A DNA stretch of 25,468 bases from a virus. The translations under genes were made by a program, and so were the position numbers. Positions 3,570-23,935 of this stretch are shown here, piece after piece; the stretch's first letter is position 1, and every line of letters begins with the position of its first letter. The DNA lies in the IMG/VR virus record IMGVR_UViG_3300043543_000470, positions 1 through 25,468 of that record; one strand, written 5' to 3'. Under the pieces are notes generated by a model. That model saw only the letters and a list, made by a program, of their open reading frames with translations, had not been told where the DNA came from and ran no database searches.

Positions 3570-3669
3570 ATGTACTATCTTTATATATCTATGAGAACCT
3601 GATTGCGTTTGCGTGCAGCACGCCGCGCCACGCCTGAGATCGAGGTATTGTTTTTAAGTAATACTATAG

Positions 3670-3689: not shown

Positions 3690-3712
3690 GGCTCAGCCGA
3701 CCGCCTCGCGGG

Positions 3713-4357
3713 TCAGATCTTCACGGCGCGCGCCCTCTGCGAGCGCTCGTTTTTTATGTAGTGCGCCTCGTCGACGATGAGGAGGTCGCATGCGAGCCGC
3801 TCGACGTGGCGGCTCGCCACGTCATAGTTAACGATGAGTACGTCAGCGTCTGGCATATTGTTGCCGGCGATGACACCGACGGTGAGCGGGAGCGTCGACC
3901 ATCGCTTCCACTCGTACACCCAGTTCAGCTTTACCGACGCCGGACAAACGACAACTACGCGACGAGGACGCAGTGTATTCGCGACGAGAATCGCCTGCAC
4001 TGTCTTGCCGAGTCCCATCTCGTCGGCGATGAGCACGCCTCGACCCTCGGCGAGGGTGTGGAGCGCGTACTTTACTCCAGCGAGCTGAAACGGATATGGG
4101 GTTAGACCAGCAGGAACAGGTACGTCGATGTCGGCAGCAGAGGCTCGCGATTCGTTGATGCGTTGCTCCAGCTCTGCGATGCGAGCCGTTGCGGCGTCGT
4201 CGAGCCATCGGACTATTGGCTCGACGTTGTGAAGTGCCGTCGTGTGCCATATACGACGAGCGGGGTCCCATCGGAACCCTGCCGCCTTGAGCGCCTCGCG
4301 GTGGGGGTAGGTGTTCCCCGCCGCAACAAATTCGCCGCTGCGGAACGTGATGTGCAT
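3713..4357 (-). CDS. SNF2-family helicase, truncated after motif II
   Basis: The protein is 214 residues. The ATG at 4357 has AGGAG 7 nt upstream. Residues 1-55 form the small N-terminal domain often found before phage SNF2/SMARCAL1-like helicases (FRWDPARRIWHT). Then come LTPYPFQLAGV (about 85-95), Walker A DEMGLGKT (112-119), motif Ia VVVCPASVKLNW (135-146) and motif II DEAH (196-199). The protein stops 15 residues after DEAH, just where motif III (TGTP) would follow. The whole second RecA domain with motifs IV-VI is absent, and I cannot find it in any frame of this window. Full phage members have about 430-500 residues. Alone it may bind ATP but should not translocate on DNA, unless the other half is supplied separately. 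The break borders the iteron region, which suggests a rearrangement there. It could be a pseudogene. Confidence 0.8.
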   Translation of the reverse strand: MHITFRSGEFVAAGNTYPHREALKAAGFRWDPARRIWHTTALHNVEPIVRWLDDAATARIAELEQRINESRASAADIDVPVPAGLTPYPFQLAGVKYALHTLAEGRGVLIADEMGLGKTVQAILVANTLRPRRVVVVCPASVKLNWVYEWKRWSTLPLTVGVIAGNNMPDADVLIVNYDVASRHVERLACDLLIVDEAHYIKNERSQRARAVKI

Positions 4358-4376
4358 ACTACCTCTCCTAGGCGTA

Positions 4377-4405
4377 GGAGTAGACCGTCGCGCCGTATGT
4401 GTCAA
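4377..4405 (-). promoter_or_regulatory. leftward early promoter
   Basis: Minus strand: a perfect TTGACA (4405-4400), 17 nt spacer and TACTCC (4382-4377) as a poor -10 box, 20 nt before the start of the SNF2-like gene. It has the same design as the rightward promoter at 4581, so the two form a divergent pair. Confidence 0.6.
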
Positions 4406-4439
4406 CCCCCTGCAGAAAATACGTTGCTTATACTTGGGG

Positions 4440-4502
4440 CCGGTCAGCCAGTCCCCATATCCGACCGGTTTTTGACGCGCGCTCGCTCCTTCGGGGACTG
4501 GC
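4440..4502. promoter_or_regulatory. two overlapping, mutually exclusive hairpins in the divergent control region
   Basis: The 282 nt between the divergent genes (4358-4639) hold no credible gene. Two inverted repeats overlap here. Hairpin A pairs CCGGTC (4440-4445) with GACCGG (4463-4468) and is followed by TTTTT on the plus strand, like an intrinsic terminator. Hairpin B pairs a 10-bp arm (4447-4456) perfectly with 4493-4502. B's left arm is in A's loop and A's right arm is in B's loop, so both cannot easily form at once. No gene visible in the window would be terminated here. An antisense or leader RNA, or an operator for a dimeric protein, are possible readings. Confidence 0.4.
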
Positions 4503-4580
4503 CAGATGCCGAGGGGGCTGGTGTGAGTATGCCGCCATCGCATCTCCTCGCAAGGTTCCCGTTTCTTTGCCTACTGCCAG

Positions 4581-4609
4581 TTGACACCCTTAGGTTGAGG
4601 CGCTACTCT
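4581..4609 (+). promoter_or_regulatory. rightward early promoter
   Basis: Perfect TTGACA at 4581-4586, exactly 17 nt, then TACTCT at 4604-4609. It is followed 30 nt later by the ATG at 4640 with a GGAGGAG ribosome site. It drives the right arm and is the partner of the leftward promoter at 4405-4377. Confidence 0.65.
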
Positions 4610-4639
4610 ACGGCTAGACCACCCAGTGGAGGAGCGCCG

Positions 4640-4843
4640 ATGGAAGAGGCAGTGCGGAAAGCGGCGGCAATGGCGAAGGACATAGCACCGCTCATCGACG
4701 GCAGCCGGTTCAGCGCCGCGCTCAGCTGGCTCGCCGACAACAAGCCTGACCGCAAGACGGTCAGGCACCACCTCCAGATTGTGGAGGAAGCCATCGAACG
4801 ACTTACCGAAATTCGTAAAACTCTCAAGGAGGTGCTTCGGTGA
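4640..4843 (+). CDS. hypothetical small helical protein, first gene of the right arm
   Basis: The protein is 67 residues. The ATG at 4640 follows GGAGGAG at about 6 nt, directly behind the strong TTGACA promoter. It has no family that I recognise. The sequence predicts nearly all helix: an Ala/Lys-rich first helix, a middle SALSWLADNKPDRKTVRHHL, and a last amphipathic helix VEEAIERLTEIRKTLKEVL with a heptad of Ile/Leu, so a two- or three-helix bundle that could dimerise. The stop overlaps the GTG start of the next gene, so the two are co-translated. First genes after an early promoter in phages are often host-takeover or anti-defence factors; that is only positional inference. Confidence 0.65.
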   Translation: MEEAVRKAAAMAKDIAPLIDGSRFSAALSWLADNKPDRKTVRHHLQIVEEAIERLTEIRKTLKEVLR

Positions 4844-5244
4844 CGGTCTTCGCATACAATATCGCCGCAGAAGAAGTACGAGACGTCTGCGCAAAGGGGT
4901 TCGGATACCCGATAGTGCAGCTCAAAGACGCGCCGCGCGTCGGTGTGGCGGTCGCCGAGTCGTTTGAGGAGGTGCGGTCGCACCTTCTAAAAAACGGCTC
5001 GATGATCCGAGACCTTGTTGTAGTCGTGCCTCAAAGTGTGCATGAAATTCGAGCTGGTTCTCTCGTATGGTGCGCGTGGATGCTCGTCGTGACCGGTACC
5101 GAGCCGCCGGTCGTCGTTCTCCGCCTCGTCTCTGCGGTTCGAATGCTGCGGCGCATGCCGCTCGTCGTAGTGACTCCATACTACGATCTGGAGAAAACGA
5201 TGGTCGAGGCAAACGTGAGGACTTTCCCGCCGGTGAGGGAGTAG
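4840..5244 (+). CDS. hypothetical protein of the early right arm
   Basis: The protein is 134 residues. The GTG start at 4840 overlaps the previous stop (GTGA) and has AAGGAGG 7 nt upstream. I do not recognise the family. It alternates short hydrophobic strands (LVVVVPQ, WMLVVTG, PPVVVLRLVSAV, MPLVVVTPYY) with helices, the look of a small alpha/beta fold of the Rossmann or P-loop-less type, and there is no nucleotide-binding loop. The string of Val-rich strands and the single-domain size would fit a small regulatory or decoy protein. The TAG stop is in the same frame as the open frame that follows (zinc-finger protein), separated by only four sense codons and a TTG, so readthrough would make a fused protein. 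Confidence 0.62.
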   Translation: MTVFAYNIAAEEVRDVCAKGFGYPIVQLKDAPRVGVAVAESFEEVRSHLLKNGSMIRDLVVVVPQSVHEIRAGSLVWCAWMLVVTGTEPPVVVLRLVSAVRMLRRMPLVVVTPYYDLEKTMVEANVRTFPPVRE

Positions 5245-5256
5245 CCGTACGAGCCT

Positions 5257-5802
5257 TTGGGGGATACTGGACGATGCCGCTGGTGCCTCGTGCCACTCGA
5301 CGACCACGACGTTATCTGCACACGGGGGTGCGCGGTCGACTGCGGCGGCGACGCTGCCGCGGAGAAGCGGGGTTCGACTCCCCGCCGCCTCCACCACCCC
5401 GACATGCTCGTGATGTCGCAGGAGGCTGAAATGATTACGGAACTTGAATATGGAGCGCCACTCGCTACGTTTCGGTTCTGGCAGAAGGTAGATACGAGCG
5501 TACCGCCGGTCGTGGCGTTACTAGCCGGCGACCATTTCGCTGGTTTCCGCCGCGTGATACTATCGCGTGCCGAGGGTTCCATCGCGCTTGTGGAACTGGA
5601 GCTGTGGTCGGTAGAGGCGATCGAGGCGTTCTTGCCTCAGTACACAGCGGCTCTTGAGTATGCTTACGTCGCGGACGGCTTCAACCCTTACTTGCTGGCG
5701 GTTGATTCCCCAGACCCTGCCATCCTCGCGCAGATAGAAGCCTACCTTGCTGCGTATGGCGTGTCTGTCGCCAAACTCTGCGATAGGTTAGGGTGGAACT
5801 AA
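5257..5802 (+). CDS. hypothetical protein with N-terminal CxxC-xxP-x-DDH zinc finger; alternative start 5431
   Basis: The frame is open from just after the stop at 5244 to 5802. Its first residues, GRCRWCLVPLDDH followed by two more Cys, closely match both halves of the small zinc protein at 8346 (GRCPRCLDPIDDH and GVCTTCGRPLDDH), so this part is very probably translated. The only start is TTG at 5257, without a well-placed ribosome site. A much better start is ATG 5431, with CAGGAGG just upstream, giving a 123-residue protein (MITELEYG...) of mixed alpha/beta content that I do not recognise. It has an Ile/Val/Leu-rich core and ends in a helix before RLGWN. Either one long protein, two proteins from one frame, or readthrough from the previous gene could occur. 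A tRNA-T-arm-like element (5367-5396) lies between the two parts. Confidence 0.55.
   Translation: MGDTGRCRWCLVPLDDHDVICTRGCAVDCGGDAAAEKRGSTPRRLHHPDMLVMSQEAEMITELEYGAPLATFRFWQKVDTSVPPVVALLAGDHFAGFRRVILSRAEGSIALVELELWSVEAIEAFLPQYTAALEYAYVADGFNPYLLAVDSPDPAILAQIEAYLAAYGVSVAKLCDRLGWN
5367..5396 (+). other. tRNA/tmRNA 3'-end-like element (T-arm plus acceptor strand ending CCA)
   Basis: GCGGGG, loop TTCGACT, CCCCGC forms a perfect T-arm-like hairpin with the invariant TTCGA loop. It is followed by CGCCTCC, A, CCA as in a tRNA or tmRNA 3' end. GGGGGTG at 5324-5330 could pair with CGCCTCC with two G-U pairs. However, the 73 nt between cannot give a normal D-arm and anticodon arm, and the stem is one pair too long. 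It may be a remnant attachment site copied from a host RNA gene, a tRNA mimic, or chance in G+C-rich coding DNA. No integrase is seen. Confidence 0.35.
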
Positions 5803-6338
5803 TGCTGAGAAGGCAGCTAGTCATCATCGAAGGACCGAACGGGTGCGGCAAGACGACGTTCGTCCGCCGCATCGAAGAGCTGTACCCCGGTCACACGTGT
5901 ATCGTCCATTGGCGCTCGCAGACACCGCACCATTACGAGTACGCATTCCAGGCTGCGCGCTTCCTCATCGAGGCGGAGGTGCTCGTAGTGTGGGACAGGA
6001 GCTGGTTGTCGAACCTCGTCTACGCACGCCTCGGAAGTAACACGCTGGAGTACTCAGATAAGGATCTTCGCCGCTTTCATAGAGTACCGGCGCTGCGCAT
6101 CGTCGTGGTTCCGCCGGCGAGGCTTAGACACGACGACGCTACCGACCCTCACGAGAAAGACTACGAGCTGGAGCGTATGGCATACCTCGACGAGGCGAGG
6201 CGATGGGGGTGGAACGTGATTGATCGGTACTACGATACTGACGAGGTGGCGCGCGAGGTGGTAGACTTTATGACATGCCGAAGGGATGTCGTCTCATCGA
6301 TAGTGACATTGCCATCGAGACCATCATCGCGTACCTAA
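5802..6338 (+). CDS. thymidylate/deoxynucleoside-monophosphate kinase-like protein
   Basis: The protein is 178 residues. It should phosphorylate a (deoxy)nucleotide for phage DNA synthesis. A Walker A loop GPNGCGKTTF lies at about residues 10-19 after a hydrophobic first strand (QLVIIE). A second acidic strand (VLVVWDRSWLSNLVYAR, about 62-78) has the D-R-(S/W) signature of thymidylate kinases, and a lid region rich in Arg/Asp/His follows (RLRHDDATDPHEKDYELERM). The length is a little below the usual 200. I start at ATG 5802, which overlaps the preceding stop (TAATG); GTG 5793 is in frame but weak. The C-terminus runs 64 nt into the small terminase gene and its last 20 residues look poorly conserved. 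The specificity for dTMP is inference. Confidence 0.75.
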   Translation: MLRRQLVIIEGPNGCGKTTFVRRIEELYPGHTCIVHWRSQTPHHYEYAFQAARFLIEAEVLVVWDRSWLSNLVYARLGSNTLEYSDKDLRRFHRVPALRIVVVPPARLRHDDATDPHEKDYELERMAYLDEARRWGWNVIDRYYDTDEVAREVVDFMTCRRDVVSSIVTLPSRPSSRT

Positions 6339-6700
6339 GCGCCGGTCATTTCGTCGATACTGCGGCGAAAGCTGCCGGTGTCGACCCTGAGACCGTGTCT
6401 CGGTACATCAGAGCATACGAGACCGGCGAAGGCGACGAGGCTTCGCGAGAGCTTGGTAAGATGTTCGCGGAAGCCATTGCGAAGGCTGAGGTTAGTATTC
6501 TCGGGAAATGGATGCAGGCGTTCGATAAAGACTGGCGAGCCGTGGCGGCTTTTCTCGCTAAGCGGTTCCCTGACCGCTATAGCGCCGCACTAAAGGAGCT
6601 GTCCAATGCAGACTTAAACATTCGGTTCGAAATCGTGGATTACGACCCCGCAGAGCATGGGAAGAAGGGAGGACGACCAAGAAAGAAGCGTGAGGCATGA
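6275..6700 (+). CDS. terS: terminase small subunit
   Basis: The protein is 141 residues, which would recognise the packaging site on phage DNA and recruit the large subunit. The N-terminal helix-turn-helix IAYLSAGHFVDTAAKAAGVDPETVSRYIRAYETG (about residues 13-46) is the typical terS or Nu1-like DNA-binding region. A long helix follows (LGKMFAEAIAKAEVSILGKWM...WRAVAAFLAKRFPDRY), which in this family forms the oligomerisation ring, and then a basic tail GKKGGRPRKKREA. The start at 6275 overlaps the kinase gene by 64 nt and has only a distant ribosome site, so a later start is possible. It lies one gene before the large subunit, the usual order. Confidence 0.82.
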   Translation: MPKGCRLIDSDIAIETIIAYLSAGHFVDTAAKAAGVDPETVSRYIRAYETGEGDEASRELGKMFAEAIAKAEVSILGKWMQAFDKDWRAVAAFLAKRFPDRYSAALKELSNADLNIRFEIVDYDPAEHGKKGGRPRKKREA

Positions 6701-6719
6701 ACGGCTGGGGTTTAGAGAC

Positions 6720-7085
6720 ATGTTATACTCAATGTATCATCGAACGCTCGCGGAGGAGCTGCATTACATCGATATTGATGCCGTCGAGTATTGCGCCGAA
6801 TGCCGCACGCCGATTGCATTAATCGAGACAGTCCGAGATGTGGGACAGAATCTGTTAACGAAGTCCTACACAGTGACGCGTCGCCTAGCCTTGATGGCCG
6901 GACTTCCTGCGTTCGTCGTCGCGTACAGAGCGGGTCTTGACGAAGATACGAACGACGAATACATCGAGACGCTTCGAGTGCGGCAGGTGTCGCCGAGCGT
7001 AGACAAGTATTTCACCGTAATGGCGCCGGAGGAATACGAGCAATGGCTTCTAAGCCTAAGAAAAACTCACTCGTGTACAAAGTAA
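6720..7085 (+). CDS. hypothetical phage protein between the terminase genes
   Basis: The protein is about 121 residues from ATG 6720 (GTG 6690 and ATG 6732 are in-frame alternatives; none has a strong ribosome site). The pattern D-I-D-A-V-E-Y-C-A-E-C, then P-I-A-L-I-E-T-V-R-D-V-G-Q, then T-V-T-R-R-L-A, P-A-F-V-V-A-Y resembles a family I associate with terminase neighbourhoods in phages of G+C-rich bacteria. The D...ALIE layout followed by a hydrophobic strand (AFVVAYR) could be a PD-(D/E)XK nuclease-like core whose Lys has been lost, but that is speculative. C-x2-C could bind a metal. It overlaps the large terminase by 43 nt. A role in packaging or genome end processing is suggested only by position. 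Confidence 0.6.
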   Translation: MLYSMYHRTLAEELHYIDIDAVEYCAECRTPIALIETVRDVGQNLLTKSYTVTRRLALMAGLPAFVVAYRAGLDEDTNDEYIETLRVRQVSPSVDKYFTVMAPEEYEQWLLSLRKTHSCTK

Positions 7086-8221
7086 CAAAGGCGCAGCATG
7101 AGTTCGTCACCGCCGAAGAGGATGTAGTACTTTTTGTCGGCGGCATTGGCTCTGGCAAGACCTATGCCGGAACCCTCCGCTGTATGCGGTTCTTTACCGA
7201 CACTACTCCTCGCACAGGAATTGTCGTTGCTCCTACCTACCGTATGCTCGTCGACGTCGTTGAACGGACTTGTTTGGAGCTGTGGAATCCCATCGAGTAC
7301 CACCGCACGCTACACGCCATGCGAGTTGGTCCGCACCTCGTTCTTTTTCGGAGTGCAGACGAGCCGGATCGGTTGAGAGGGATTAACGCCTCGTGGGTAT
7401 GGGTGGACGAGGCGGCGCTAGTGCGCAAGGAGGTTTGGCTCATTTTGCTCGGTCGCCTTCGTGAGCACGGAGAACGAGGTAAGGCGTGGTTGACGACCAC
7501 GCCTAAGGGTAAGAACAACTGGGTGTACGAGGTGGCGCACCAGCCGGGGGTGCGCGTCGTGCACGCGCGGACCTCGAGCAATGTGTTCCTCGACGAGTCG
7601 TTCGTCGAGATGCTGCGGCAGGAGTATACGAACAGATTCCAGCAGCAGGAGCTGGAAGGCGAGTTCATCGACATGGATGACGCACTCATTGACGTCTCCC
7701 GCATTCGGTGGATTGACGGCGTAGACGAGTCCGAAGTCGTCGACTCTGTGCGATACTGGGACCTCGCGGTATCGATGAGGTCGACGGCTGACTATACGGC
7801 CTCGGCGCGAGTGGTGAGGCTTCGTGACGGCAGGTACGTCGCCACCGCTCCTATTCGGCGGCGCATTCCGTACCCCGAGCTTCGCGAACTAATCGTACAG
7901 ACGCATCTAGCAGAGCCGTCTACGAGAGTATATGTCGAGGCGAACGCCTTCCAGCTCGCCGCTGTGCAGGACCTGCAGTCCGACCCGCGAGTGGGGTTTG
8001 TGGAACCTATTATCGTCGATCGTGATAAAGTAAGTCGAGCTATGCCGTGGGTAGCGAGGCTGGAGCAGGGAGTGCTGGCGTTCGACTCGTTGTACGACTG
8101 GCGAGACTGGATCCGCGAGTTTTCTCAGTTCCCGGAGGGGGAACACGACGACACGGTAGATGCGTTGAGCGGCGCCTTTTTGGCGCTGTCTAAACCGAGG
8201 CGTAAGTTGGAGGTGTGGTAA
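7043..8221 (+). CDS. terL: terminase large subunit
   Basis: The protein is 392 residues, the ATPase-nuclease motor that cuts and packages phage DNA into the prohead. The N-terminal ATPase has Walker A GGIGSGKT (about 33-40), a PTYRM element and Walker B WVWVDEA (about 116-122), followed by the coupling motif LTTTPKG. The C-terminal RNase H-like nuclease has its first Asp in RYWDLAVS (about 237), an acidic central strand (VYVEAN) and the last acidic motif EHDDTVDALSGAF (about 367). It is slightly shorter than the usual 420-550 residues but complete. The start ATG 7043 lies inside the preceding gene, with GGAGGA 10 nt upstream. The stop overlaps the start of a tiny membrane protein. Confidence 0.95.
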   Translation: MASKPKKNSLVYKVTKAQHEFVTAEEDVVLFVGGIGSGKTYAGTLRCMRFFTDTTPRTGIVVAPTYRMLVDVVERTCLELWNPIEYHRTLHAMRVGPHLVLFRSADEPDRLRGINASWVWVDEAALVRKEVWLILLGRLREHGERGKAWLTTTPKGKNNWVYEVAHQPGVRVVHARTSSNVFLDESFVEMLRQEYTNRFQQQELEGEFIDMDDALIDVSRIRWIDGVDESEVVDSVRYWDLAVSMRSTADYTASARVVRLRDGRYVATAPIRRRIPYPELRELIVQTHLAEPSTRVYVEANAFQLAAVQDLQSDPRVGFVEPIIVDRDKVSRAMPWVARLEQGVLAFDSLYDWRDWIREFSQFPEGEHDDTVDALSGAFLALSKPRRKLEVW

Positions 8222-8349
8222 TGCATCGCATGAGAGATACTGTTTACACGGCGGTGCACGTGCACGCTGCCATCGTGGCTGCGGTGCTGTTAGTATTACA
8301 TTCCGCTGCTGCTGTATACCATGCCTTGCGAGTGATGGAGGATAGATGA
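8221..8349 (+). CDS. 42-residue single-pass membrane protein
   Basis: This is a short frame from ATG 8221, overlapping the terminase stop (TAATG), to TGA 8349. Its stop overlaps the next start as ATGA, where GGAGG inside this frame is the ribosome site of the next gene. After a basic N-terminus (MHRMRDTVY) one hydrophobic helix of about 22 residues runs from VHAAIVAAVLLVLHSAAAVY, then a short charged tail. The tight coupling on both sides supports translation. It may be a membrane-acting lysis accessory (pinholin-like) or a superinfection factor, but no family is recognised. His residues at both ends of the helix are unusual. Confidence 0.55.
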   Translation: MHRMRDTVYTAVHVHAAIVAAVLLVLHSAAAVYHALRVMEDR

Positions 8350-8546
8350 CGACGCCGCCCGGTCGTTGTCCTAGGTGCCTCGATCCGATTGACGACCACA
8401 GAGGCGCGGAACCTTGTCGCCTCGGGAAGAAGACAAGGGTGCGATACCTGACGTTCTCCGGCGGTGTTTGCACAACGTGCGGCCGACCGCTTGACGACCA
8501 CGCTTCACACCAGGACGGTCTTTCGTGTCCACCAAATCAGGCGTAG
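8346..8546 (+). CDS. double zinc-finger protein with CxxC-xxP-x-DDH repeats
   Basis: The protein is 66 residues. The ATG at 8346 has GGAGG at good spacing and overlaps the previous stop. It contains two copies of one module: GRCPRCLDPIDDH with a following Cys (about residues 6-24), and GVCTTCGRPLDDH with a final Cys (about 41-60). Each could bind one zinc through Cys-x2-Cys, His and the trailing Cys. The same module forms the N-terminus of the protein at 5257. Apart from the fingers it is Gly/Arg-rich without a catalytic motif. A DNA- or RNA-binding or partner-binding adaptor is likely, but the function is unknown. Confidence 0.68.
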   Translation: MTTPPGRCPRCLDPIDDHRGAEPCRLGKKTRVRYLTFSGGVCTTCGRPLDDHASHQDGLSCPPNQA

Positions 8547-8558
8547 AATGGTGGTCCT

Positions 8559-8768
8559 ATGATCGTCATCTACGACGCACACGACGGAAGTCTGTTGTGG
8601 GATGTATACGAACAGCGCGGCATATATGTAAACTGCCGCACTGTCGAAGTGATGGACTATGCGCGCGCCGTGAGATGGATACGCGAGCGGGGGTGGTCTG
8701 AGCTTCCGCTGACGTGTGAGTGTTACGCGTGCCGTGCGAGCCGTGCGAGCCGAGACACTTCGAAATGA
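8559..8768 (+). CDS. hypothetical protein with C-terminal C-x-C-x2-C
   Basis: The protein is 69 residues from ATG 8559, after a weak GGTGG ribosome site. It begins with a hydrophobic strand (MIVIYDAHDGSLLWDVYE), has a helix ARAVRWIRERGW, and ends in CECYACRASRASRD, so it is another possible zinc or metal binder in this cluster of small proteins. It is not recognised. The end of the gene overlaps by 46 nt, tail to tail, the end of the minus-strand prohead protease. The overlap contains the 9-nt direct repeat GCCGTGCGA twice, which encodes R-A-S repeats here and R-L-A repeats in the protease. Confidence 0.55.
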   Translation: MIVIYDAHDGSLLWDVYEQRGIYVNCRTVEVMDYARAVRWIRERGWSELPLTCECYACRASRASRDTSK

Positions 8769-9634
8769 GCAACGCTGCGGAGTGCGTCTCGTCGTTCGAG
8801 ATCTTCCAGCTGCTTTCGCACTACAATGAGACCGCGTTCGCTCATCTCTGGAGGCTCGGCGTCGAACTCCTCGTAGTGCTGCGCGAGGTGCTGGTAGACC
8901 TCGTCGCGATCGTTGTCAGGGATATCGACACCCCCTCGCGCCTCGAGGAGAGCAGCCATCGCGGCGACAACCCCTCGCCAATGCGCCGGACCAACTCCCG
9001 ACTTTTGCGGTACGTGGTGCGGCAATTTGAGGTCGTCGAATCTTTCAGGCGGCCACGCCGCGCTCCAGGCGAAATGGCGACCGATCCGCCGCCGCTCGGT
9101 TGTGTCGAGTTCGTCAAATCGCATGTCGGTGAAATCGCTCAGATTAGGACGAGACCACGAACCTTCTCGGGTAGTTCCTTCGCTTCGGAACGGAACCGCC
9201 ATTTTGACCGAGATGGTGCTGGTTAGCGGCTGCGCGGGAACGCCGACAAGGGAGATCTCGTACACCGTTGCGCGCTTGATGACGCGCACGTCCTTATCGT
9301 AGCAGTGTTCATTAATGATGAAGCCGAACGACCATTTTGCTTTAGAGCCGAGCGCCTTCACTGTCTCATAAGCCTCCTTGCCGGAGGCGGTATTCAAGAA
9401 AAACTTCCCCCGCACCGTTGCAAGGTCACCTCTAATGGAAGGCACTCCAATGCCGATAGGAAGTCCGCTGTGGTTGGCGAGGAGAGGTACCTCGGAATCG
9501 ACGAACTCAAGACCGGAGACGTCAACGATGTCGCCGACTAAGTCGGGAGCCCCGCCGACAGCAAACACCGCCTCGAAAACACCCTCATCGTCGAGTACTT
9601 CGAGGTTCTTAGTGGAAAGCGTGACGTATCGCAT
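8723..9634 (-). CDS. prohead (HK97-type, S78 family) protease, isolated on the minus strand
   Basis: The protein is 303 residues, which cleaves scaffold/delta parts of the capsid protein during head maturation. The serine-protease core is residues 1-150, with His55 in LLANHS, Ser102 in the conserved W-S-F-G-F, and EISLVGVPA (Glu126) ending the core. A C-terminal extension follows (about 170-275) of the kind fused to many phage proteins, with RWH-like AWSAAWPPERFDD, LPHH, GVVAAMAALLEARGGVDIP and VYQHLAQHYEEF. The ATG at 9634 has GGAGG 7 nt upstream. It lies between plus-strand genes for terminase accessories and tail tube, opposite in direction and about 10 kb from the portal and capsid genes with which this protease normally sits. 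It shares a divergent control region with the tail tube gene. Confidence 0.9.
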   Translation of the reverse strand: MRYVTLSTKNLEVLDDEGVFEAVFAVGGAPDLVGDIVDVSGLEFVDSEVPLLANHSGLPIGIGVPSIRGDLATVRGKFFLNTASGKEAYETVKALGSKAKWSFGFIINEHCYDKDVRVIKRATVYEISLVGVPAQPLTSTISVKMAVPFRSEGTTREGSWSRPNLSDFTDMRFDELDTTERRRIGRHFAWSAAWPPERFDDLKLPHHVPQKSGVGPAHWRGVVAAMAALLEARGGVDIPDNDRDEVYQHLAQHYEEFDAEPPEMSERGLIVVRKQLEDLERRDALRSVAHFEVSRLARLARHA

Positions 9635-9656
9635 TCGTTGCTACCTCCGGCTTGTA

Positions 9657-9688
9657 TTGTACCACGAGCCTACTATGTGGTATAGTAG
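9657..9688 (+). promoter_or_regulatory. promoter of the tail operon with a perfect palindrome
   Basis: TTGTAC (9657-9662), 18 nt, TATAGT (9681-9686) points to the tail tube gene at 9709. Overlapping the -10 box is a perfect inverted repeat CTACTAT-gtggt-ATAGTAG (9670-9688), which would suit a dimeric regulator. The divergent protease gene starts at 9634, so such a regulator could act on both. Confidence 0.5.
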
Positions 9689-9708
9689 TCATGCATGGAG
9701 GTGCTTAG

Positions 9709-10254
9709 ATGTCGACTTCTATCGTCGTGAAGCCGTTTCTTGCGTATATCGCAGACGTCGGCACAACATTTCCTGCTCTAGGCTCTGCTCCTGGCGCGGG
9801 GTGGACGAAGATCGGCGATTCTGAGCTTTGTCAGGACGACGACGGTCTGACCATCACCATCTCTCAGAATGTTGAGTACTTCCGAGGTCAGAATACCGGT
9901 CCGATGAAAGCGTGGCGCACCGAGGAGACGGTTGAAATTGAGTTCAACCTCGCCGATTTCAGCGCCGAGGTCGTGGCTGCTGCGCTTGGCACCACGGTGA
10001 CGACTGGCACGAGCAACAAGAGCGTCGCTCTTTTCCGCGGCATTTCAATGAGGGAGAAGGCTCTCCTCGTGCGTGGCGTCGGCGCCTCACCATACGACCA
10101 GACGAAGGACGTTCAGTACGAATTCCCGCGCGTAGTGGCCAGCGGTGAGCCAGAGCTGGTGCACTCGAAGTCCGGTCCAGTCATTGTGAAGGTGAAATAC
10201 ACAGTGATCTGGGATTCGACGAACGGTTTCGGCGTCGTGCGTATGGCGACATAA
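9709..10254 (+). CDS. major tail tube protein
   Basis: The protein is 181 residues, which would stack as rings to form the phage tail tube. ATG 9709 has GGAGG 7 nt upstream. It contains the beta-rich pattern of siphovirus tail tube proteins: KIGDSELCQDDDGLTITISQNVEYFRGQNTG near residues 35-62, an EETVEIEFNLADFSAEVVAAALG block (about 74-96) and a C-terminal strand with IVKVKYTVIWDS. The length matches the family. It lies first in the tail operon, followed by a BppU-like protein, the chaperones and the tape measure, the expected order. I assign it by pattern and position. Confidence 0.85.
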   Translation: MSTSIVVKPFLAYIADVGTTFPALGSAPGAGWTKIGDSELCQDDDGLTITISQNVEYFRGQNTGPMKAWRTEETVEIEFNLADFSAEVVAAALGTTVTTGTSNKSVALFRGISMREKALLVRGVGASPYDQTKDVQYEFPRVVASGEPELVHSKSGPVIVKVKYTVIWDSTNGFGVVRMAT

Positions 10255-10267
10255 TAGGAGGCAGTCG

Positions 10268-10621
10268 ATGAGCGGTAAGACAAGCGCGCAAATCGACGGC
10301 CAGGTGTTCTACATCAAGCGGAACGACACCCTGCCATCTTTGCAAGCCACGTTGACGCGGTCAGGCAGCGCCGTCAACCTCACCGGTTTGTCGGTGAAGT
10401 TCCACATGCGCGACGCGTACACCGGCACAGTCGTCATCAATTCCCCTGCAACGATTGTTGACGCGGTGAATGGCATTGTCGAGTACCTGTGGGAACCAGC
10501 CGACACGGTCGCTGCCGGTCTGTACGAAGGGGAGTTTGAGGTCACCATCGCACCTGACAAGGTGATGACATTTCCAAACGACGGACACATCCTAATACAT
10601 ATTGTCGACGACATCGCGTAG
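10268..10621 (+). CDS. BppU N-domain-like / Ig-like phage protein
   Basis: The protein is 117 residues. ATG 10268 follows TAGGAGG. It shows the compact beta-sandwich pattern of the BppU N-terminal domain: a polar first strand with RNDTLPSLQATLTRSGSAVNLTGLSVKFHMRD (about 19-50), IVDAVNGIVEYLWEPADT, GLYEGEFEVT and a C-terminal strand DGHILIHIVDD. In lactococcal phages BppU attaches receptor-binding proteins to the baseplate. As a stand-alone domain next to the tail tube gene it more likely decorates the tail tube or head. It is a small, complete gene. Confidence 0.75.
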   Translation: MSGKTSAQIDGQVFYIKRNDTLPSLQATLTRSGSAVNLTGLSVKFHMRDAYTGTVVINSPATIVDAVNGIVEYLWEPADTVAAGLYEGEFEVTIAPDKVMTFPNDGHILIHIVDDIA

Positions 10622-10631
10622 GAGGTAGCAC

Positions 10632-10985: not shown

Positions 10986-10996
10986 CAGCCGATGAG

Positions 10997-11302
10997 GTGT
11001 GGTACATCGTCGCGCGGCTGACGCGTATATACGGCGGAACACCGGACTACTGGCTCAAGGCACCAATGCGAGTTGTACGCAACATGTTCGAACAGATTCA
11101 GCGAGTCGAAGCCGAGGAGGCGCTTCGCGACATCACGACGACAGCCGTCGGAGTAGGCTCGGTGAAGCGCGGCGTCGCGCGTGACATTATCGCGAAACTG
11201 CAGCGAGCGGCTGAGCGAAAGCGTGATACAATCGAAACGAAGGAAGCGCTGCCGGTATTGCAGACAGTATTCTCAGTCGTGAAGGAGTCGAGCAATGGCT
11301 GA
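10997..11302 (+). CDS. tail assembly chaperone, frameshift extension (T part of gpGT)
   Basis: This region is 101 residues from the GTG at 10997, but it has no ribosome site there. The same frame is open back to 10940, and the residues before the GTG (EYQLTADE) look like part of the protein. It is therefore almost surely made only as a -1 frameshift fusion to the preceding chaperone (total about 223 residues). WYIVARLTRIYGGTPDYWLKAPMRVV and the long helix with the MFEQIQRVEAEEALRD block match the second tail chaperone frame of siphoviruses. It is adjacent to the tape measure gene, whose ATG at 11295 overlaps the stop. Confidence 0.85.
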   Translation: MWYIVARLTRIYGGTPDYWLKAPMRVVRNMFEQIQRVEAEEALRDITTTAVGVGSVKRGVARDIIAKLQRAAERKRDTIETKEALPVLQTVFSVVKESSNG

Positions 11303-13271
11303 GAACACCATCGGTACAGCGGTCATGGAGATTACCGCCGACACGAGCGGCGTGCTTCGCAGCGTCGATGAGCTTGGCACTTCTTTGCGGCAGCGCCTCG
11401 GACGGATTGGCGCCGACATCGGTAAGGCAGGCGGTGTGTTCAGCGGTCTAATCTCGCTTCCTGTTGCCGGGTTCTTTATGAGCGCCGCGACGACTGCGGG
11501 TGATTTCGAAAAAACACTCAACACGCTCGGCGCCGTCAGCGGCGCGACCACGGAGGAACTGAAGCGGCTGAAAGACCAGGCGCTAGAGCTTGGTCAATCT
11601 ACCAGCTTCTCTGCCACAGACGCGGCGCAGGCGCAGGTCGAGCTGGCGAAAGCGGGACTGTCGGTAGAGCAAATCCTGGCGGCGATGCCGTCGGTGCTCC
11701 AGCTCGCGGCGGCAGGTCAGCTTGACGTTGGCGAGGCGGCGTCGATTGCTGCCGCGATGATGAACACGTTTGGTTTGAGCGGCGAGGGGCTGGCGCGCGT
11801 GAACGACGTGCTGGCTGCGGCGGCGAACGCTTCAGCAACCGGTGTGCGGGAGATAGGCACTGCGATGGCTTACGTCGGTCCGGTGGCGTACCAGCTCGGC
11901 GTTAGCTTCGAGGAGACGACCGCCGCCATCGCGCTCCTGTCTAACGTAGGCATAGACGCCTCGCAGGCTGGCACAGCGCTTCGCGGCGCTCTCTCGACGC
12001 TCATCAACCCAACGCAGCAGCAGAAAAAAGTGCTAGATGAGCTCGGAATCTCGGTTTACGACTCGCAGGGACGGTTCGTCGGTTTGATTGAGATCATTCG
12101 GCAGCTTGAGCAGTCGGGTGCCGACACTGCACAGATCTTGGCGATTTTTGGCGACCGCGCCGGTCCTGCGATGGCGGCGCTGCTGCAAATCGGTTCCGAC
12201 TCGTTGGGGGAGATGACGAAACAGCTAGAGAATTCGGGCGGAACAGCAGAACGAGTCGCCAACTCGCAGATGGCAGGATTCCGAGGTCAGCTTGAAGAGT
12301 TAAACGGCGCACTTGAGACGCTAAAAATCCGGCTCCTTATGGACACCGGTCTCCTTGAGAAACTAACGCTAGTACTTACTAAGGCGGCAGACGCCGTGTC
12401 AAAACTCACCAACTGGTTTGCGCGCCTTGACCCCAGGGTGCAGCGGCTCCTCCTCGGGTTCCTCGGCGTGTTCGCCGTTCTAGGACCGTTGATGGTGCTC
12501 ATCGCGGGAACTATTCTAGTGCTTAGCGTACTCGGTAGCACGGTAGCTATGGTCGGCATCATAATTGCGAGCCTCGTCGTCATCGGCTACGCATTGTATA
12601 CAATCTTCTCGCTGTTGTGGCCTGAGATTGAGAACTTTTTCCGCACTGTCGGCACGAAGGCGCGGGAATTCGGTAACGATGTTCGCAACGCCTTCGAGAT
12701 GGTGAAAGGTTGGTTGGAGCGCAATTGGCCGCTCGTGGCTAGCATTATCCTCGGTCCGATGATGCTCGTTGTGTCGCCTGTGCTTGCGGCTGTCAACATG
12801 ATTGTCGGCGGCTTCTTCATGCTGAAAGACCGCATAATCGGCGCGTTAGAAACGGCTTGGGGGTTCATCAAGTCGTTCCCTGACCGCCTCTACAACGCCG
12901 GTCGTGAGATGATTGACAAGCTCATTTCCGGCATTTCATCGAAGTTGCCGAGCTTGAGCGGCACAGTCGACAGAGCGTTCAACACGTTAAAGAAACTCAA
13001 CCCCTTCGCACGCTTCTCACCGTCCCTGGTCGACCAGGTACGGCGAGGGACGCATGAGATAATGCAGCTATACACGCGAATGGATGTGAATCTTCGCAGT
13101 ACGCTTGAGGGGGTGAGGGAGAACGTCATCCTGGCACCGAGCGCTGTTCCTGCTGGAGCGGCGGCGCCGGTATATGTGAACGTTGAGGGACCGGTACTCG
13201 GCGACCTCGGGTTCGACGAGTGGCTCGCGCGGCGGCTGCAAACGCTGCTTCGCCGTGAAGGGAGGTTGTGA
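11295..13271 (+). CDS. tail tape measure protein
   Basis: The protein is 658 residues, which sets tail length and is ejected with DNA. It overlaps the chaperone stop (ATGGCTGA). Residues 60-320 form the TP901-type tail measure domain, with SAATTAGDFEKTLNTLGAVSGATTEELKRL and FGDRAGPAMAALL as its recognised landmarks. About residues 382-440 make a cluster of two or three strongly hydrophobic helices (LLLGFLGVFAVLGPLMVLIAG and following), which likely insert into the host membrane. The last third is amphipathic. By the usual rule of about 0.15 nm per residue, a tail near 100 nm is expected. The stop overlaps the start of the tail hub gene. Confidence 0.93.
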   Translation: MAENTIGTAVMEITADTSGVLRSVDELGTSLRQRLGRIGADIGKAGGVFSGLISLPVAGFFMSAATTAGDFEKTLNTLGAVSGATTEELKRLKDQALELGQSTSFSATDAAQAQVELAKAGLSVEQILAAMPSVLQLAAAGQLDVGEAASIAAAMMNTFGLSGEGLARVNDVLAAAANASATGVREIGTAMAYVGPVAYQLGVSFEETTAAIALLSNVGIDASQAGTALRGALSTLINPTQQQKKVLDELGISVYDSQGRFVGLIEIIRQLEQSGADTAQILAIFGDRAGPAMAALLQIGSDSLGEMTKQLENSGGTAERVANSQMAGFRGQLEELNGALETLKIRLLMDTGLLEKLTLVLTKAADAVSKLTNWFARLDPRVQRLLLGFLGVFAVLGPLMVLIAGTILVLSVLGSTVAMVGIIIASLVVIGYALYTIFSLLWPEIENFFRTVGTKAREFGNDVRNAFEMVKGWLERNWPLVASIILGPMMLVVSPVLAAVNMIVGGFFMLKDRIIGALETAWGFIKSFPDRLYNAGREMIDKLISGISSKLPSLSGTVDRAFNTLKKLNPFARFSPSLVDQVRRGTHEIMQLYTRMDVNLRSTLEGVRENVILAPSAVPAGAAAPVYVNVEGPVLGDLGFDEWLARRLQTLLRREGRL

Positions 13272-14728
13272 TGTCGCTCTCGGGTACTCCAATTACGTCG
13301 TTTGGCGTAACTGTTTTGTGCGACTGGAATGCAGATGGTAATTACGAGGATGTGATTGAGCGGCATCGATTGAAGTCACTAGAGGTTGAATTTGGCCGCA
13401 GCGTGGCGAGCGCGCTGTTTGGCGCGGCGAATATTCCGAGGTGTGTGCTGACGGTCGAAACATACGACCGGCGGTACGTGCCGTGGTACACTGGTTCACC
13501 GTTGTACCCGAATGTGTCAACAGGAGCGCGTATTATTGTGTCGGTTCAATTCAATTCAAACTCATTCGTGCTGTTTACTGGCTATGTCGCGCGGGTGAAA
13601 CCATCAATGTCCCGTCCCACCGAGGTCGAAATTGAATGCGAGGGCTCGATGAGTCGCCTTGCGCGAACGTTTCCCGTGTTTCCACCGTACCGACGCGCCC
13701 GCGTGCCAACAATTATCGATGACATTTTGTCGACAATTCCTGGATTGAACTATTTTGTTGATGAAGAAGGGCTCACTGCTGAAGTCGTGCATTACGCGGC
13801 AGATGGTACCCGCAGCGCACTTGAAATCATCCGCGAGCTTGAGCGAATCGGCGATGGATTTTTCACAGAGTTTCCGGATGGCAAGCTGTACTACTTCGGC
13901 GGGAGGCCGCCGAAACTAACTGGCTCGCCGCTGCGTATTGACGATGGCTCGCCAAATGCGGACTTCATCTACCGTGAGATGCAGGCGGTCGACGAAACGT
14001 TCGTCACGCGAATGTCGTACGGCGGAGTGCATGAGTCGAAATTTATCATTAGAAAAGTGCTTGAGCTCGCAGGACCATTTGCTATCGGCCCGCAAGAGAG
14101 CCGCGAATTTGGAATCGAAATGTCAGAGGGGCTGCTGTGGTCCATTACCGGCGTCGAGCTGGACGGTGTAGGCGCGTTCACGTATAATGTACCGTACAAC
14201 GACGGCTCGAAGGCGGCGCTTGTCATTACGAACGCGTCAACGACGTCGACGCTTGTCGCGCGGCGCCTAAAAGTCAGCGGTCTCGTGCTGCTCAGCACGA
14301 CGAGGCGCGGAGTCGCGGAGAACACGGCGGCAATCAACCGCCTCGGTTACCGTGAGGTTCAGTTCGACGCTTCGGTTATCCCATACTACACTGCAAAAAG
14401 CCGCGCCGAGTTCATGACCGACAAGTACGCAGCACCGTATCCCATCATTGAGGTAACATTCGACGGCTTGGTGAACGCAGAGCACGCGCGGCTGCCGTTG
14501 TACCTGCGGCAGAACGACGTCGTCTACTTCGGCTCATACCTGCTCGGCAGTCAAGTACTGCCGTGCTATGTCGAGGGGTTTCGTGTTACAATTGCAAACC
14601 ACGCGACATATAGAATCACATACACACTGACAAAATACGTCAACCAAGCAGAAAACGTCTGGTACCTTGGAAGCAGCCAGCTTGGTAGTGGAACAAGATT
14701 GTGGTACTTGACGAACGAACTCTCGTAG
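13271..14728 (+). CDS. distal tail / baseplate hub-like protein
   Basis: The protein is 485 residues. I start at ATG 13271, which overlaps the tape measure stop (TGATG) and has GGAGG 5 nt upstream; GTG 13268 is possible. It begins with an Asp-Trp-Asn-x-Asp-Gly-x-Tyr-Glu-Asp Ca2+-loop-like motif (DWNADGNYEDV, about 17-27). It continues with beta-rich segments (LEVEFGRSVASALFGAAN and TEVEIECEGSMSRLAR) and a late part with RRLKVSGLVLLSTTR and a tail-hub-like beta domain. Position right after the tape measure and before the fibre genes indicates a distal tail or hub protein. The family name is inference from position and style. Confidence 0.75.
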   Translation: MSLSGTPITSFGVTVLCDWNADGNYEDVIERHRLKSLEVEFGRSVASALFGAANIPRCVLTVETYDRRYVPWYTGSPLYPNVSTGARIIVSVQFNSNSFVLFTGYVARVKPSMSRPTEVEIECEGSMSRLARTFPVFPPYRRARVPTIIDDILSTIPGLNYFVDEEGLTAEVVHYAADGTRSALEIIRELERIGDGFFTEFPDGKLYYFGGRPPKLTGSPLRIDDGSPNADFIYREMQAVDETFVTRMSYGGVHESKFIIRKVLELAGPFAIGPQESREFGIEMSEGLLWSITGVELDGVGAFTYNVPYNDGSKAALVITNASTTSTLVARRLKVSGLVLLSTTRRGVAENTAAINRLGYREVQFDASVIPYYTAKSRAEFMTDKYAAPYPIIEVTFDGLVNAEHARLPLYLRQNDVVYFGSYLLGSQVLPCYVEGFRVTIANHATYRITYTLTKYVNQAENVWYLGSSQLGSGTRLWYLTNELS

Positions 14729-14738
14729 GAGGCGCGAG

Positions 14739-15818
14739 ATGCCATTTCCAATTCCAGTGCTGAAACACTATGATATGGTGACCAGCTCTTGGCTGAACAC
14801 CTATCTTCGCGACAACCTCAATTTTCTGTTCAACAATGATTTGACACTATTTGGATTGAGCCCGGTACAGACACCGCCGAGCGGGTTGAACGGCACATTG
14901 AAAGCGTACACCTTCCGCATCAAACCGCGGGGGATCAGGGAAGGAACGTTCTATAAACTCGCAGCAATGCAGCTCGAGGCGCCTGTCATCGCGTTCGTGC
15001 GTCATGGAGGTAAGGTTCAACGGTTCATGTTCATGACACGGACAGGCGCGACCGCTACGCCGCAGGTCGTGCCGCCGGAGTATACGGTCGGCGAAGAACC
15101 CGGCGCTGCGGCAATGGCGGTCGTGTACGAGTCGACATCAAGCGTGTGGGTTGGGCTGTTCATGAAGCCGAGCGACCCAATCGCCTTGTCTGGCGAGTAC
15201 GAAGTCGTGCTCATCACTGACCAAACGAAGGTGCTCAGCGCCGTCGACGAACCGGCGCCAGTCGATGTGCCGTTCGGAGTGCAGAAATTCTCGTGGGGGC
15301 AGGGGCAGGACATCGCGTATTTCGGACACACCACAAGCGCGGCGACTCCCGGCAGCAAGCAGCTGAGCATTGAACTGCGCGATTGGAACATGACCGACAA
15401 CGAAGGCGAATTCGGCTTTGCACGCCTTGACGGGTACGTGATAGGCACCGCTAACGGAGACCTCTATATGTCGTGGACGTCCGACCCGAGGGGCGACCAG
15501 CTGTGGCGGGTGCGGGCTCTCGTTGCTGACGGCACAGTGGTGTCACAGACATCATCAGGAAGCAGTGCGAACCCGGCCATCATCAGCCGCGTGCAGCAGA
15601 ACATGCCGACATTTTTCCGCGTGTTCCTGTGGAAGTTCGGCTTCGATGTCTCTACTATTGTCACGTCGACATACCTCACCTCATCAAACCCCTCGTTGTT
15701 CTTGAGCTCAGGCTGGCAGGCACTCCGCCAGAACGCCGCGTACGACACCATCTACTTCACACCATCCAATGGATTCTTTGTCGAGGGCGCGGTGACGGCA
15801 TTCTGCACGAATTGGTAA
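14739..15818 (+). CDS. tail tip/fibre protein A
   Basis: The protein is 359 residues. ATG 14739 follows GTAGGAGG. An N-terminal helix module (YDMVTSSWLNTYLRDNLNFL, about 11-30) is followed by beta-rich, Gly/Ser/Thr-rich sequence. It ends with TPSNGFFVEGAVTAFC. The next gene has the same layout (LN-x3-x-NL-x-x-L in the first 40 residues, beta-rich body, ALSGSVFACI at the end), so the two are diverged paralogs. Such proteins form tail tips or fibres that contact the host surface. I see no enzymatic motif. The exact role, such as receptor binding, is inference from position between the hub and endolysin genes. Confidence 0.7.
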   Translation: MPFPIPVLKHYDMVTSSWLNTYLRDNLNFLFNNDLTLFGLSPVQTPPSGLNGTLKAYTFRIKPRGIREGTFYKLAAMQLEAPVIAFVRHGGKVQRFMFMTRTGATATPQVVPPEYTVGEEPGAAAMAVVYESTSSVWVGLFMKPSDPIALSGEYEVVLITDQTKVLSAVDEPAPVDVPFGVQKFSWGQGQDIAYFGHTTSAATPGSKQLSIELRDWNMTDNEGEFGFARLDGYVIGTANGDLYMSWTSDPRGDQLWRVRALVADGTVVSQTSSGSSANPAIISRVQQNMPTFFRVFLWKFGFDVSTIVTSTYLTSSNPSLFLSSGWQALRQNAAYDTIYFTPSNGFFVEGAVTAFCTNW

Positions 15819-15839
15819 AATTGAGGAGAGGGTAGCGCA

Positions 15840-16868
15840 ATGGTATGGTATCCCCCTAAAACGTGGAGCAACGGCGAAATTGTTGCTGCACAAAGCCTCA
15901 ACGAGCAGATTGTTGAGAACCTCACACATCTGCTCGAACAGAACTTCGCGTGGCTCGGCACCGCCGGTGCGCCGTTCACACCGCCGACCTCGTGGAAAGC
16001 GATTCGGCTCAACCGCGCGATGTCGGCGACGACGAACGCGTTTAACAACCTCGGGTACTTCACGAACGGCACGCACGTGATGGCGTACATCTGCGACACG
16101 TACCACATTCGAGAGTACGACTTCGTGCTGCAGCACCCAGGCGTGGCAGATACTTATGTCATCTCACCGCGAAGTGTGGTTGGAACGAACCATCATACAT
16201 ACTGCGTGCTCGAGGCGGTGTTCACCAGCAGTTCAAATGACCCAGTGCGCTTGCGCATTCGGCAGCACCGCAACCTTGCGGGCGTGGGGTCGCGCACTAT
16301 CAAGGTGCTGCTGTTCGTGAGCGCGCCGCCCGTGCTCATCGATAATGACGCCATTTTCACGGGTAGTACGAACACGAATATTTACCCATTCGTCGGTCCT
16401 GGCCGATTGTTTGACGCGTACAACGTCTACACCTCGTCAGCGACGTCGCTGTCCGTCTTTCCGTGCATCGAGCGCGGTGAGACGTTCGAGCTGATGGGAT
16501 TTATTCAGGCGAGCAGCACGTCCTCGTGGGAGCTGCGGCCGAACGGCGAGGGGTCGTCAACGGGCTGGATTCGGCAGCTGCTCATTGCCGACGGCACGTC
16601 GGTATCCGCGAGCCGGTCAACAAATATGAACACGCTCGTCACAACTGCGACCGCCGAGGGGGTAGGGTTCTACTACCTCGGCTCCCTGACGAACAACGGC
16701 GAATTGGTGCTGACCGGCTCACGAACGTATAACATTTTGAACCCCTTTATCGTGCACCAAGCGGTGACGAAAGGCGGGGCCTACAATCCGGTCTACTTAC
16801 TCTCACTCACCGGCGGCACAGCGCTGTCGGGAAGCGTGTTTGCGTGCATTCGGCATTGCAGGTTTTGA
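15840..16868 (+). CDS. tail tip/fibre protein B, paralog of the preceding gene
   Basis: The protein is 342 residues. ATG 15840 follows GAGGAGAGGG. The N-terminal module TWSNGEIVAAQSLNEQIVEN and following LTHLLEQNFAWLG matches the preceding gene (LN, NL and L-F/W-G in register). The body is again rich in strands with Thr/Ser/Asn turns, and the C-terminus ends GSVFACIRHCRF with two Cys. It most likely pairs with protein A in the tail tip; host-range variation would be expected in these two. The function is inferred from order and composition. Confidence 0.7.
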   Translation: MVWYPPKTWSNGEIVAAQSLNEQIVENLTHLLEQNFAWLGTAGAPFTPPTSWKAIRLNRAMSATTNAFNNLGYFTNGTHVMAYICDTYHIREYDFVLQHPGVADTYVISPRSVVGTNHHTYCVLEAVFTSSSNDPVRLRIRQHRNLAGVGSRTIKVLLFVSAPPVLIDNDAIFTGSTNTNIYPFVGPGRLFDAYNVYTSSATSLSVFPCIERGETFELMGFIQASSTSSWELRPNGEGSSTGWIRQLLIADGTSVSASRSTNMNTLVTTATAEGVGFYYLGSLTNNGELVLTGSRTYNILNPFIVHQAVTKGGAYNPVYLLSLTGGTALSGSVFACIRHCRF

Positions 16869-16886
16869 CGATGAGCGACGGACAGC

Positions 16887-16946
16887 TTGTTCGCCTGCGT
16901 GCGGCACTGTAGAATGTAGGAGGAGGAGGAGGAGGAGGGGGAGGCA
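16887..16946 (+). promoter_or_regulatory. lysis gene promoter and extended GGA-repeat ribosome site
   Basis: TTGTTC (16887-16892), 17 nt, TAGAAT (16910-16915) is a plausible promoter just ahead of the endolysin. It is followed by a purine tract of five or more GGA repeats (about 16918-16943) that ends four nucleotides before the ATG at 16947. The repeats offer several overlapping Shine-Dalgarno registers. The stretch 16869-16946 otherwise holds only a 13-codon frame. Confidence 0.45.
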
Positions 16947-17813
16947 ATGGGAATCGTTCTCGACATCAGTAATCACGACTACTCAACGTTCAACGCAGAA
17001 TGCTTTCGCAACAACGGCGTAGAGCGAGTCATCGTCAATGCATGGGACTGCCGTATCAGCGAAGACATGATTCGCAAATGCCGAGCGTTCGGCATCGCAA
17101 GTGAAGACATCTATTGTTTCCTCTACTTCGGACTGCCTCACGAGCGGCGTGAGGTTTCTAACGCACTCGCTCTGGCAAAGAACCTCGGAGGCATCAAACG
17201 CATCTGGCTCGACGTCGAAGCGACGCCTCCTAACGAGGCGTCGGACATGACGCCGCAAAAGCGCATCAACGTCGTTGCAGAGTGTGCCGCAGAGATCGAG
17301 CGAGCGGGGTACGGCGTCGGCATCTATACAGGACGATGGTATTGGGTGCCGTACATGGAGAACACAACAGCATTCTCGAAGTACCCCCTATGGCTCGCGT
17401 ACTGGGGCAAGAACGATGGCACGCAGCCTCCTATCAAAATTGTTGACTTCGGGGGGTGGCAGCGTGTGTCTGTGCATCAATTCACCTCACGATTCGCTCT
17501 GTGCGGCAGATATCGCGACGCGAATTACTGGATGCTGAACGAAGGAAAGGAGGAACATATGACGCCGCAGGAGATCGTCAACGCCATCCTCAACGACAAT
17601 GACGCGCGCAACGCTCTCATCGCCGCCATCATGGCTGATGGACCCATCCACCTCGAGCTTGACGCCGCAAAGCGGGAGGCGTGGCAGCGCGTGCTCCTCT
17701 CACGACTGAACGAGGTGCTTCAGCGGCGGTTCGAGCTCATGCGACTGGCGCTTGAAACGAACGCGGCAGTGGTCGAGGACGCCGTTCGCAAGCTCAAGCA
17801 GTCGAAGAACTAG
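16947..17813 (+). CDS. GH25-type endolysin (muramidase) with C-terminal extension
   Basis: The protein is 288 residues, which cleaves host peptidoglycan for release. The GH25 fold is indicated by DIS near the N-terminus (LDISNHD, Asp6), a WLDVEA strand with Asp89 and Glu91 as catalytic acids, GIYTGRWYW, PLWLAYWG and HQFTS, covering about residues 1-195. Residues 205-288 form a separate helical domain (TPQEIVNAILNDNDARNALI ... LKQSKN), probably for wall binding or assembly. A strong AAAGGAGG followed by ATG at 17559 inside the gene marks a second start that would make this domain alone. The gene is the last in the right arm; its TAG stop shares CTAG with the opposite gene's stop. Confidence 0.88.
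   Translation: MGIVLDISNHDYSTFNAECFRNNGVERVIVNAWDCRISEDMIRKCRAFGIASEDIYCFLYFGLPHERREVSNALALAKNLGGIKRIWLDVEATPPNEASDMTPQKRINVVAECAAEIERAGYGVGIYTGRWYWVPYMENTTAFSKYPLWLAYWGKNDGTQPPIKIVDFGGWQRVSVHQFTSRFALCGRYRDANYWMLNEGKEEHMTPQEIVNAILNDNDARNALIAAIMADGPIHLELDAAKREAWQRVLLSRLNEVLQRRFELMRLALETNAAVVEDAVRKLKQSKN
17546..17561 (+). promoter_or_regulatory. internal ribosome binding site and ATG in the endolysin gene
   Basis: AAAGGAGG at 17546-17553, 5 nt, then the in-frame ATG at 17559 (residue 205). It stands at the linker between the GH25 domain and the C-terminal domain, so an 84-residue C-terminal product is likely made as well. Such secondary products take part in endolysin oligomers in some other phages. 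Confidence 0.6.
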
Positions 17814-23933: not shown

Positions 23934-23935
23934 GA

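Follow-up and report, generated by a model that had tools for sequence, protein, structure and literature searches.

Why would a virus carry its head genes on one strand and its tail genes on the other? The packaging-head-tail gene order is strongly conserved in siphoviruses, and the reason may be timed expression or descent. The window studied here, i.e. the whole 25,468-base stretch of the IMG/VR virus record IMGVR_UViG_3300043543_000470, departs from that order. An earlier note, made from the letters of the sequence alone, had described it as two arms of genes that diverge at one point of a circle and converge at another. We revisited this layout with gene calls and with Pfam and PHROG family searches, and compared it with the gene order of related viruses.

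Two arms on opposite strands

Plus-strand genes occupy positions 4640-17813. They comprise small early open reading frames (ORFs), a P-loop kinase-like ORF, the terminase small and large subunits (TerS and TerL), the major tail protein (MTP), the tape measure protein (TMP), tail ORFs and a GH25 endolysin. Minus-strand genes run from 4357 down to 1 and then, through the contig ends, from 25468 down to 17810: an SNF2 fragment, a PrimPol/D5 helicase-primase, PolA, a nuclease, a portal-MuF protein, the major capsid protein (MCP), a small ORF, the connectors and the tail terminator. The gene calls reproduce the arm coordinates of the earlier note and the overlapping stops at its meeting point, where the stop codons of endolysin and tail terminator share 4 bp (CTAG, 17810-17813). 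Family searches also bear out its placing of head and connector genes with the replication arm and of tail, terminase and lysis genes on the other, with one correction: the prohead protease is a minus-strand gene inside the plus arm. That head and tail genes lie on opposite strands is confirmed as the real layout.

The packaging, head, tail and lysis genes are as follows.

6275-6700, plus: TerS (PHROG 4102)
7043-8221, plus: TerL (PHROG 2, PF03237)
8723-9634, minus: prohead protease (S78), flanked in the plus arm by terminase and MTP (PHROG 80, PF04586)
9709-10254, plus: MTP (PHROG 117)
11295-13271, plus: TMP (PHROG 1533)
13268-16868, plus: three tail/tip ORFs (13268-14728, 14739-15818 and 15840-16868), named by position
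16947-17813, plus: GH25-type endolysin, last gene of the plus arm (PF01183, PHROG 291)
20996-22921, minus: portal with MuF-like C-terminus (PF04860, PHROG 2662)
19720-20940, minus: MCP (PF05065, PHROG 10)
19423-19665, minus: conserved small ORF following MCP
18934-19419, minus: head-tail adaptor (PHROG 442)
18560-18931, minus: connector-region ORF, probable stopper from its position only, without a family match
18196-18597, minus: tail completion/Neck1 (PHROG 5)
17810-18199, minus: tail terminator, last gene of the minus arm (PHROG 123)

From ORF calls and family searches, the window holds a complete-looking small siphovirus-type gene set. HK97-fold MCP, portal, S78 protease, TerL, tape measure and tail terminator are all present (PF05065, PF04860, PF04586, PF03237, PHROG 1533 and PHROG 123), and these matches assign the window to Caudoviricetes with a predicted HK97-type head and siphovirus-like tail module. 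Every identified structural gene is single-copy, with portal, MCP and connectors found in the minus arm only and TerL, protease and MTP in the plus arm only. The usual single-direction order TerS-TerL-portal-protease-MCP-connector-tail, which is not strictly defining, is broken: portal, MCP and connectors are moved and opposite, and the protease is inverted.

Gene order in relatives

Six alignment-based viral scans of IMG/VR (with portal, TerL, MCP, MTP, PolA and protease) returned several hundred loci, onto which all window proteins were mapped. Orientation was counted in the 90 distinct loci with one or more head genes together with one or more packaging or tail genes. All homologues lie on one strand in 88 of these, the exceptions being the contig L086 and Microcystis phage Mwe-Yong1112-1. 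That 88/90 homologous loci are co-oriented in textbook order argues that the window layout is the derived state. The splitting of the usual one-direction structural block, as first described, is thereby confirmed and is unusual.

The best collinear relative, L029 (3300022554_000043), keeps the textbook order TerL-portal-protease-MCP-small ORF-adaptor-neck-terminator-MTP at 33-53% identity (TerL 47%, portal 42%, protease 45%, MCP 43% and MTP 46%). L092 (3300036768_001421) is also collinear, and its PolA is likewise co-oriented with the structural block. In both, unlike in the window, the homologues (about 33-54% identical) are all on one strand and early/replication genes are co-oriented with structural genes. 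The small ORF behind the capsid gene has a 45-54% identical counterpart in the same place in each.

L086 (IMG/VR contig 3300044959_000086) is an independent record of 9,961 bp, and its plus arm is the same as that of the window, gene by gene. Its order is TerS-ORF-TerL-ORF-protease (minus)-MTP-...-TMP-tail, with the protease in the same place and orientation and with portal and MCP absent from the TerL-MTP interval. Identity to the window is 41% for TerS, 59% for TerL, 60% for the protease, 77% for MTP, 48% for TMP and 28-57% for other tail ORFs, and the homologues of the three tail/tip ORFs follow in the same order. Unlike the window, the L086 fragment ends before the head arm and lysin. Because L086 repeats both the inverted protease and the interval free of portal and MCP, the block has really been disrupted, and a pure assembly error does not account for it. 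Against such an error the comparison is decisive, and the loss of the head block from this interval and the protease inversion are older than roughly 40-50% protein divergence. Relatives with co-oriented head and tail genes had been set beforehand as the sign of an assembly inversion; such relatives were found, but no artefact follows from them, since L086 repeats the disruption.

Other searches place the window far from known phages. Megablast against 50,697 phage records gave zero DNA-level matches, and neither the portal nor the primase, used as single-protein queries on IMG/VR, gave a close relative. In protein searches, portal and MCP are nearest to Mwe-Yong1112-1 and two Sinorhizobium phages (32-36%). 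The six viral scans found the same plus arm in L086 only, and found no viral record with the head arm beside polA/nuclease. A bacterial-genome scan with the protease gave weak prophage matches (thermophilic Firmicutes, a Chloroflexota metagenome-assembled genome and others), in which any second homologue detected was co-oriented.

Switch points, contig ends and the protease spacer

Both strand-switch points fall exactly on gene boundaries, namely the 4-bp stop overlap at the convergence and, at the divergence, the gap between two outward promoter-like elements found by pattern search. The divergence side, including the replication genes, contains the following features.

4581-4609, plus: promoter-like element TTGACA-N17-TACTCT, plus-arm start
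4377-4405, minus: promoter-like element TTGACA-N17-TACTCC, minus-arm start
3713-4357, minus: SNF2-family helicase, N-terminal lobe only (PF00176, PHROG 62)
3547-3691, no strand: GGTTACGG-like repeat cluster in an AT-richer stretch between the primase and SNF2 genes
1337-3472, minus: PrimPol/D5-type primase-helicase (PF09250, PF08706, PHROG 1156)
1-177, minus: PolA N-terminal part, with Exo I motif FDIETGG
23936-25468, minus: DNA polymerase A C-terminal part, continuing from 1-177 over a short gap (PF00476)
22995-23939, minus: nuclease, RecE/Cas4-like (PHROG 434, PHROG 1706)

The expected number of matches to the pattern TTGACA-N17-TACTCY, which was composed after the sites were seen, is 0.01, and the window has three. 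The five copies of the repeat cluster (0-1 mismatch) span 145 bp and form inverted groups that surround an AT-richer core, and GC falls to about 48-53% in the island at 3.47-3.71 kb. The cluster could be a candidate origin or a regulator site. The iteron-rich AT island that the earlier note had put beside the divergence thus exists, but about 0.65 kb inside the minus arm and not at the divergence itself.

PolA is split over both contig ends in matching orientation and its halves join in frame, which indicates a circular or circularly permuted molecule. The distance from Exo I to Exo II in the joined protein is 16 residues, compared with 45-109 (median 61) in 25 relatives. This spacing is too short, which points to about 0.1 kb missing from the contig at the join, and the joined PolA would be without roughly 30-45 residues of the exonuclease domain. 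The closed circle assumed at the outset is supported to the extent that the halves meet in frame; it is not seamless.

The protease and MTP genes are separated by a divergent spacer of roughly 75 bp, in which a sigma-70 promoter scan called none. This spacer contains a palindrome, CTACTAT-GTGGT-ATAGTAG (9669-9687), that is not evident in the L086 spacer and is a possible operator or two-way promoter. As a separate observation, the C-terminal region of the protease (8845-9155; ..GDLKLPHH..SGVGP..W.GV.AAM..) is common to prophages of thermophilic Firmicutes and a Chloroflexota metagenome-assembled genome, a resemblance that gives a hint of a thermophilic host.

A structural cassette probably broken by rearrangement

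We favour the reading, at a probability of about 0.8, that the window is a near-complete, circularly permuted or circular siphovirus-type genome, and that an ancestral one-direction cassette was broken by real rearrangement in its lineage. This cassette would have been TerS-TerL-portal-protease-MCP-connectors-MTP-tail-lysin. In the window, portal, capsid and connector genes stand behind the minus-strand replication genes, and TerS/TerL, tail and lysin make up the plus arm. The protease remains on the head strand, alone between TerL and MTP. Most likely there are two long predicted transcription units, which diverge from starts near 4.4-4.6 kb and converge at 17.81 kb; the minus unit would carry replication proteins and then heads and connectors, and the plus unit terminase, tail and lysin. 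The protease would have its own minus-strand transcript from a putative promoter in the protease-MTP spacer, or else depend on minus-strand read-through across the whole tail block. Converting the collinear order into that of the window takes 4-5 inversions; with block moves permitted, 2-3 events are enough. This count depends on whether the replication genes of the ancestor ran against or with the structural block, and the order of events is one that we infer.

Several observations weigh against this reading. The contig ends fail to close exactly, the protease-MTP spacer aligns poorly with its L086 counterpart, and only this one contig shows the head arm next to polA/nuclease and running towards the lysin gene. 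In addition, a terminator scan finds none at the 17.8 kb convergence, and a stricter sigma-70 scan calls no promoter at the divergence, including at both outward elements. That is, the paired TTGACA promoters claimed earlier are present as two outward TTGACA-N17-TACTCY elements but are not called by the stricter scan.

A lineage with a broken block and a lone opposite-strand protease, kept over roughly 40-50% protein divergence, offers a natural test of what gene order is for. One rather doubtful extension of the favoured reading is that the head arm puts head assembly on the replication transcript, with packaging, tail and lysis opposing and the protease under separate control; head building, maturation and tail/packaging could then be timed independently.

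GC skew and alternative explanations

Cumulative GC skew is V-shaped, with a minimum at 3107 and a maximum at 17573, close to the extremes predicted by the earlier note (near 3.5-4.6 kb and near 17.8 kb). The switches in purine skew, at 4624 and 17857, coincide almost exactly with those in gene orientation. Split by codon position, G-C in the plus arm (protease excluded) is +598 at position 1, -225 at position 2, +30 at position 3 and +54 in non-coding DNA (sum +457); the minus arm gives -538, +206, -145 and -36 (sum -513), and the protease region nets -9, i.e. it is flat. Since codon position 1 dominates, the V follows gene orientation and is expected under any replication mode. Most of it comes from the usual enrichment of G at the first codon position, and it is poor evidence of bidirectional replication; skew as proof of the latter was rejected after this split. 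The claim that transcription is co-directional with bidirectional replication from a putative origin consequently draws no support from it. As a general caution, where a phage has two opposed gene blocks, a V in its GC skew is not enough by itself to locate a replication origin.

A weak residue at silent sites is suggestive of a signal that follows the arm and not the gene, compatible with replication or with arm-wide transcription. On its coding strand, the counter-oriented protease has a fourfold-site skew of -0.126 (n=103) in the window and -0.231 (n=117) in L086, compared with a mean of +0.07 to +0.12 for genes co-directional with their arm. A deviation this far below the remaining genes of the same genome is found in 4% of the proteases of GC-matched collinear relatives. 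Collinear proteases alone average a silent skew of -0.19 with wide scatter, and single genes in collinear L029 range from -0.2 to +0.36.

These data bear on the idea that replication drove the architecture, i.e. that bidirectional replication from 3.5-4.6 kb selected co-directional arms with termination near 17.8 kb. The skew extremes lie where this idea would have them, the repeat cluster lies near the PrimPol gene, the silent-site skew of the protease follows its arm in two records, and only 4% of proteases in GC-matched collinear relatives deviate so far. However, the dominance of first codon positions, the flat protease region, the scatter of silent skew between genes and the low average of collinear proteases all detract from it. 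Moreover, the relocation includes head genes as well as replication genes, and the protease is oriented opposite to its arm. We regard a replication-driven layout as unlikely.

Assembly could also be at fault, in that the minus arm, from 17.8 kb across the contig ends to 4.4 kb, was attached the wrong way round and all genes but the protease really run one way. The unflipped contig would have nearly all genes on one strand, like most relatives, and the head-arm junctions are known from a single contig. Yet the longest exact repeats in the window are 18 nt (direct) and 15 nt (inverted), with 10 nt inverted between the switch points, and the lack of long repeats makes repeat-driven misassembly unlikely. 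Both ends of the supposed flip would also have to coincide with gene boundaries, one at the stop overlap and one between the outward elements. Even with the flip undone, the protease would stay inverted and the head genes would not lie between TerL and MTP, which is also the case in L086. On the strength of the missing repeats and L086, we judge a flip to be quite improbable. The two opposite-strand arms might instead suggest a chimeric contig, with the head/replication arm from one of two co-occurring phages and the packaging/tail arm from the other. This is very hard to credit: the arms hold complementary single-copy gene sets, codon usage agrees between head, tail and replication gene blocks (r about 0.88-0.91), and one collinear relative, L029, matches genes of both arms at similar identity.

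Comparison with known split genomes

Split or two-arm structural modules are already known, and neither of the cases found makes the split of the window. B3-like Leptospira prophages are transcribed as two opposed arms, with the TerS-TerL-portal block or the whole head block apart from the tail in some groups (PMC8705779). In B3-like Microcystis phage Mwe-Yong1112-1 (MZ436628, L002), TerS-TerL-portal-protease share one strand, opposite MCP-connectors-tail; its portal and MCP are homologous to those of the window, but its split lies elsewhere. The window shares two opposed arms and split structural genes with B3-like phages, which are 37-40 kb long and replicate by transposition. No DDE transposase A, ATPase B (MuA/MuB type) or GemA was found among the ORFs scanned, which did not include every short ORF; PolA and PrimPol/D5 are present instead. 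The P2-like phages KS5, KS14 and KL3 carry portal Q and terminase P on the strand opposite scaffold O and the genes that follow it (PMC3091744). There, in contrast to the window (TerL plus, portal minus), terminase stays with portal; these phages also have a myovirus tail and, by annotation, another portal family. In the open-access literature we found no siphovirus with the same split, only the B3-like and P2-like cases.

Other features

Two further entries complete the plus arm.

5793-6338, plus: P-loop (thymidylate-kinase-like) protein (PF13521, weak PF02223)
8346-8768, plus: two small conserved Cys-containing ORFs, the first DUF6011-like, flanked by TerL and the inverted protease

The first of the two Cys-containing ORFs aligns with L086, where a similar second ORF can be seen by eye. 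In the minus arm, the SNF2-family gene covers Pfam SNF2 positions 1-149 of 290 and ends at the repeat island; it may be either a truncated helicase or a helicase with a new role.

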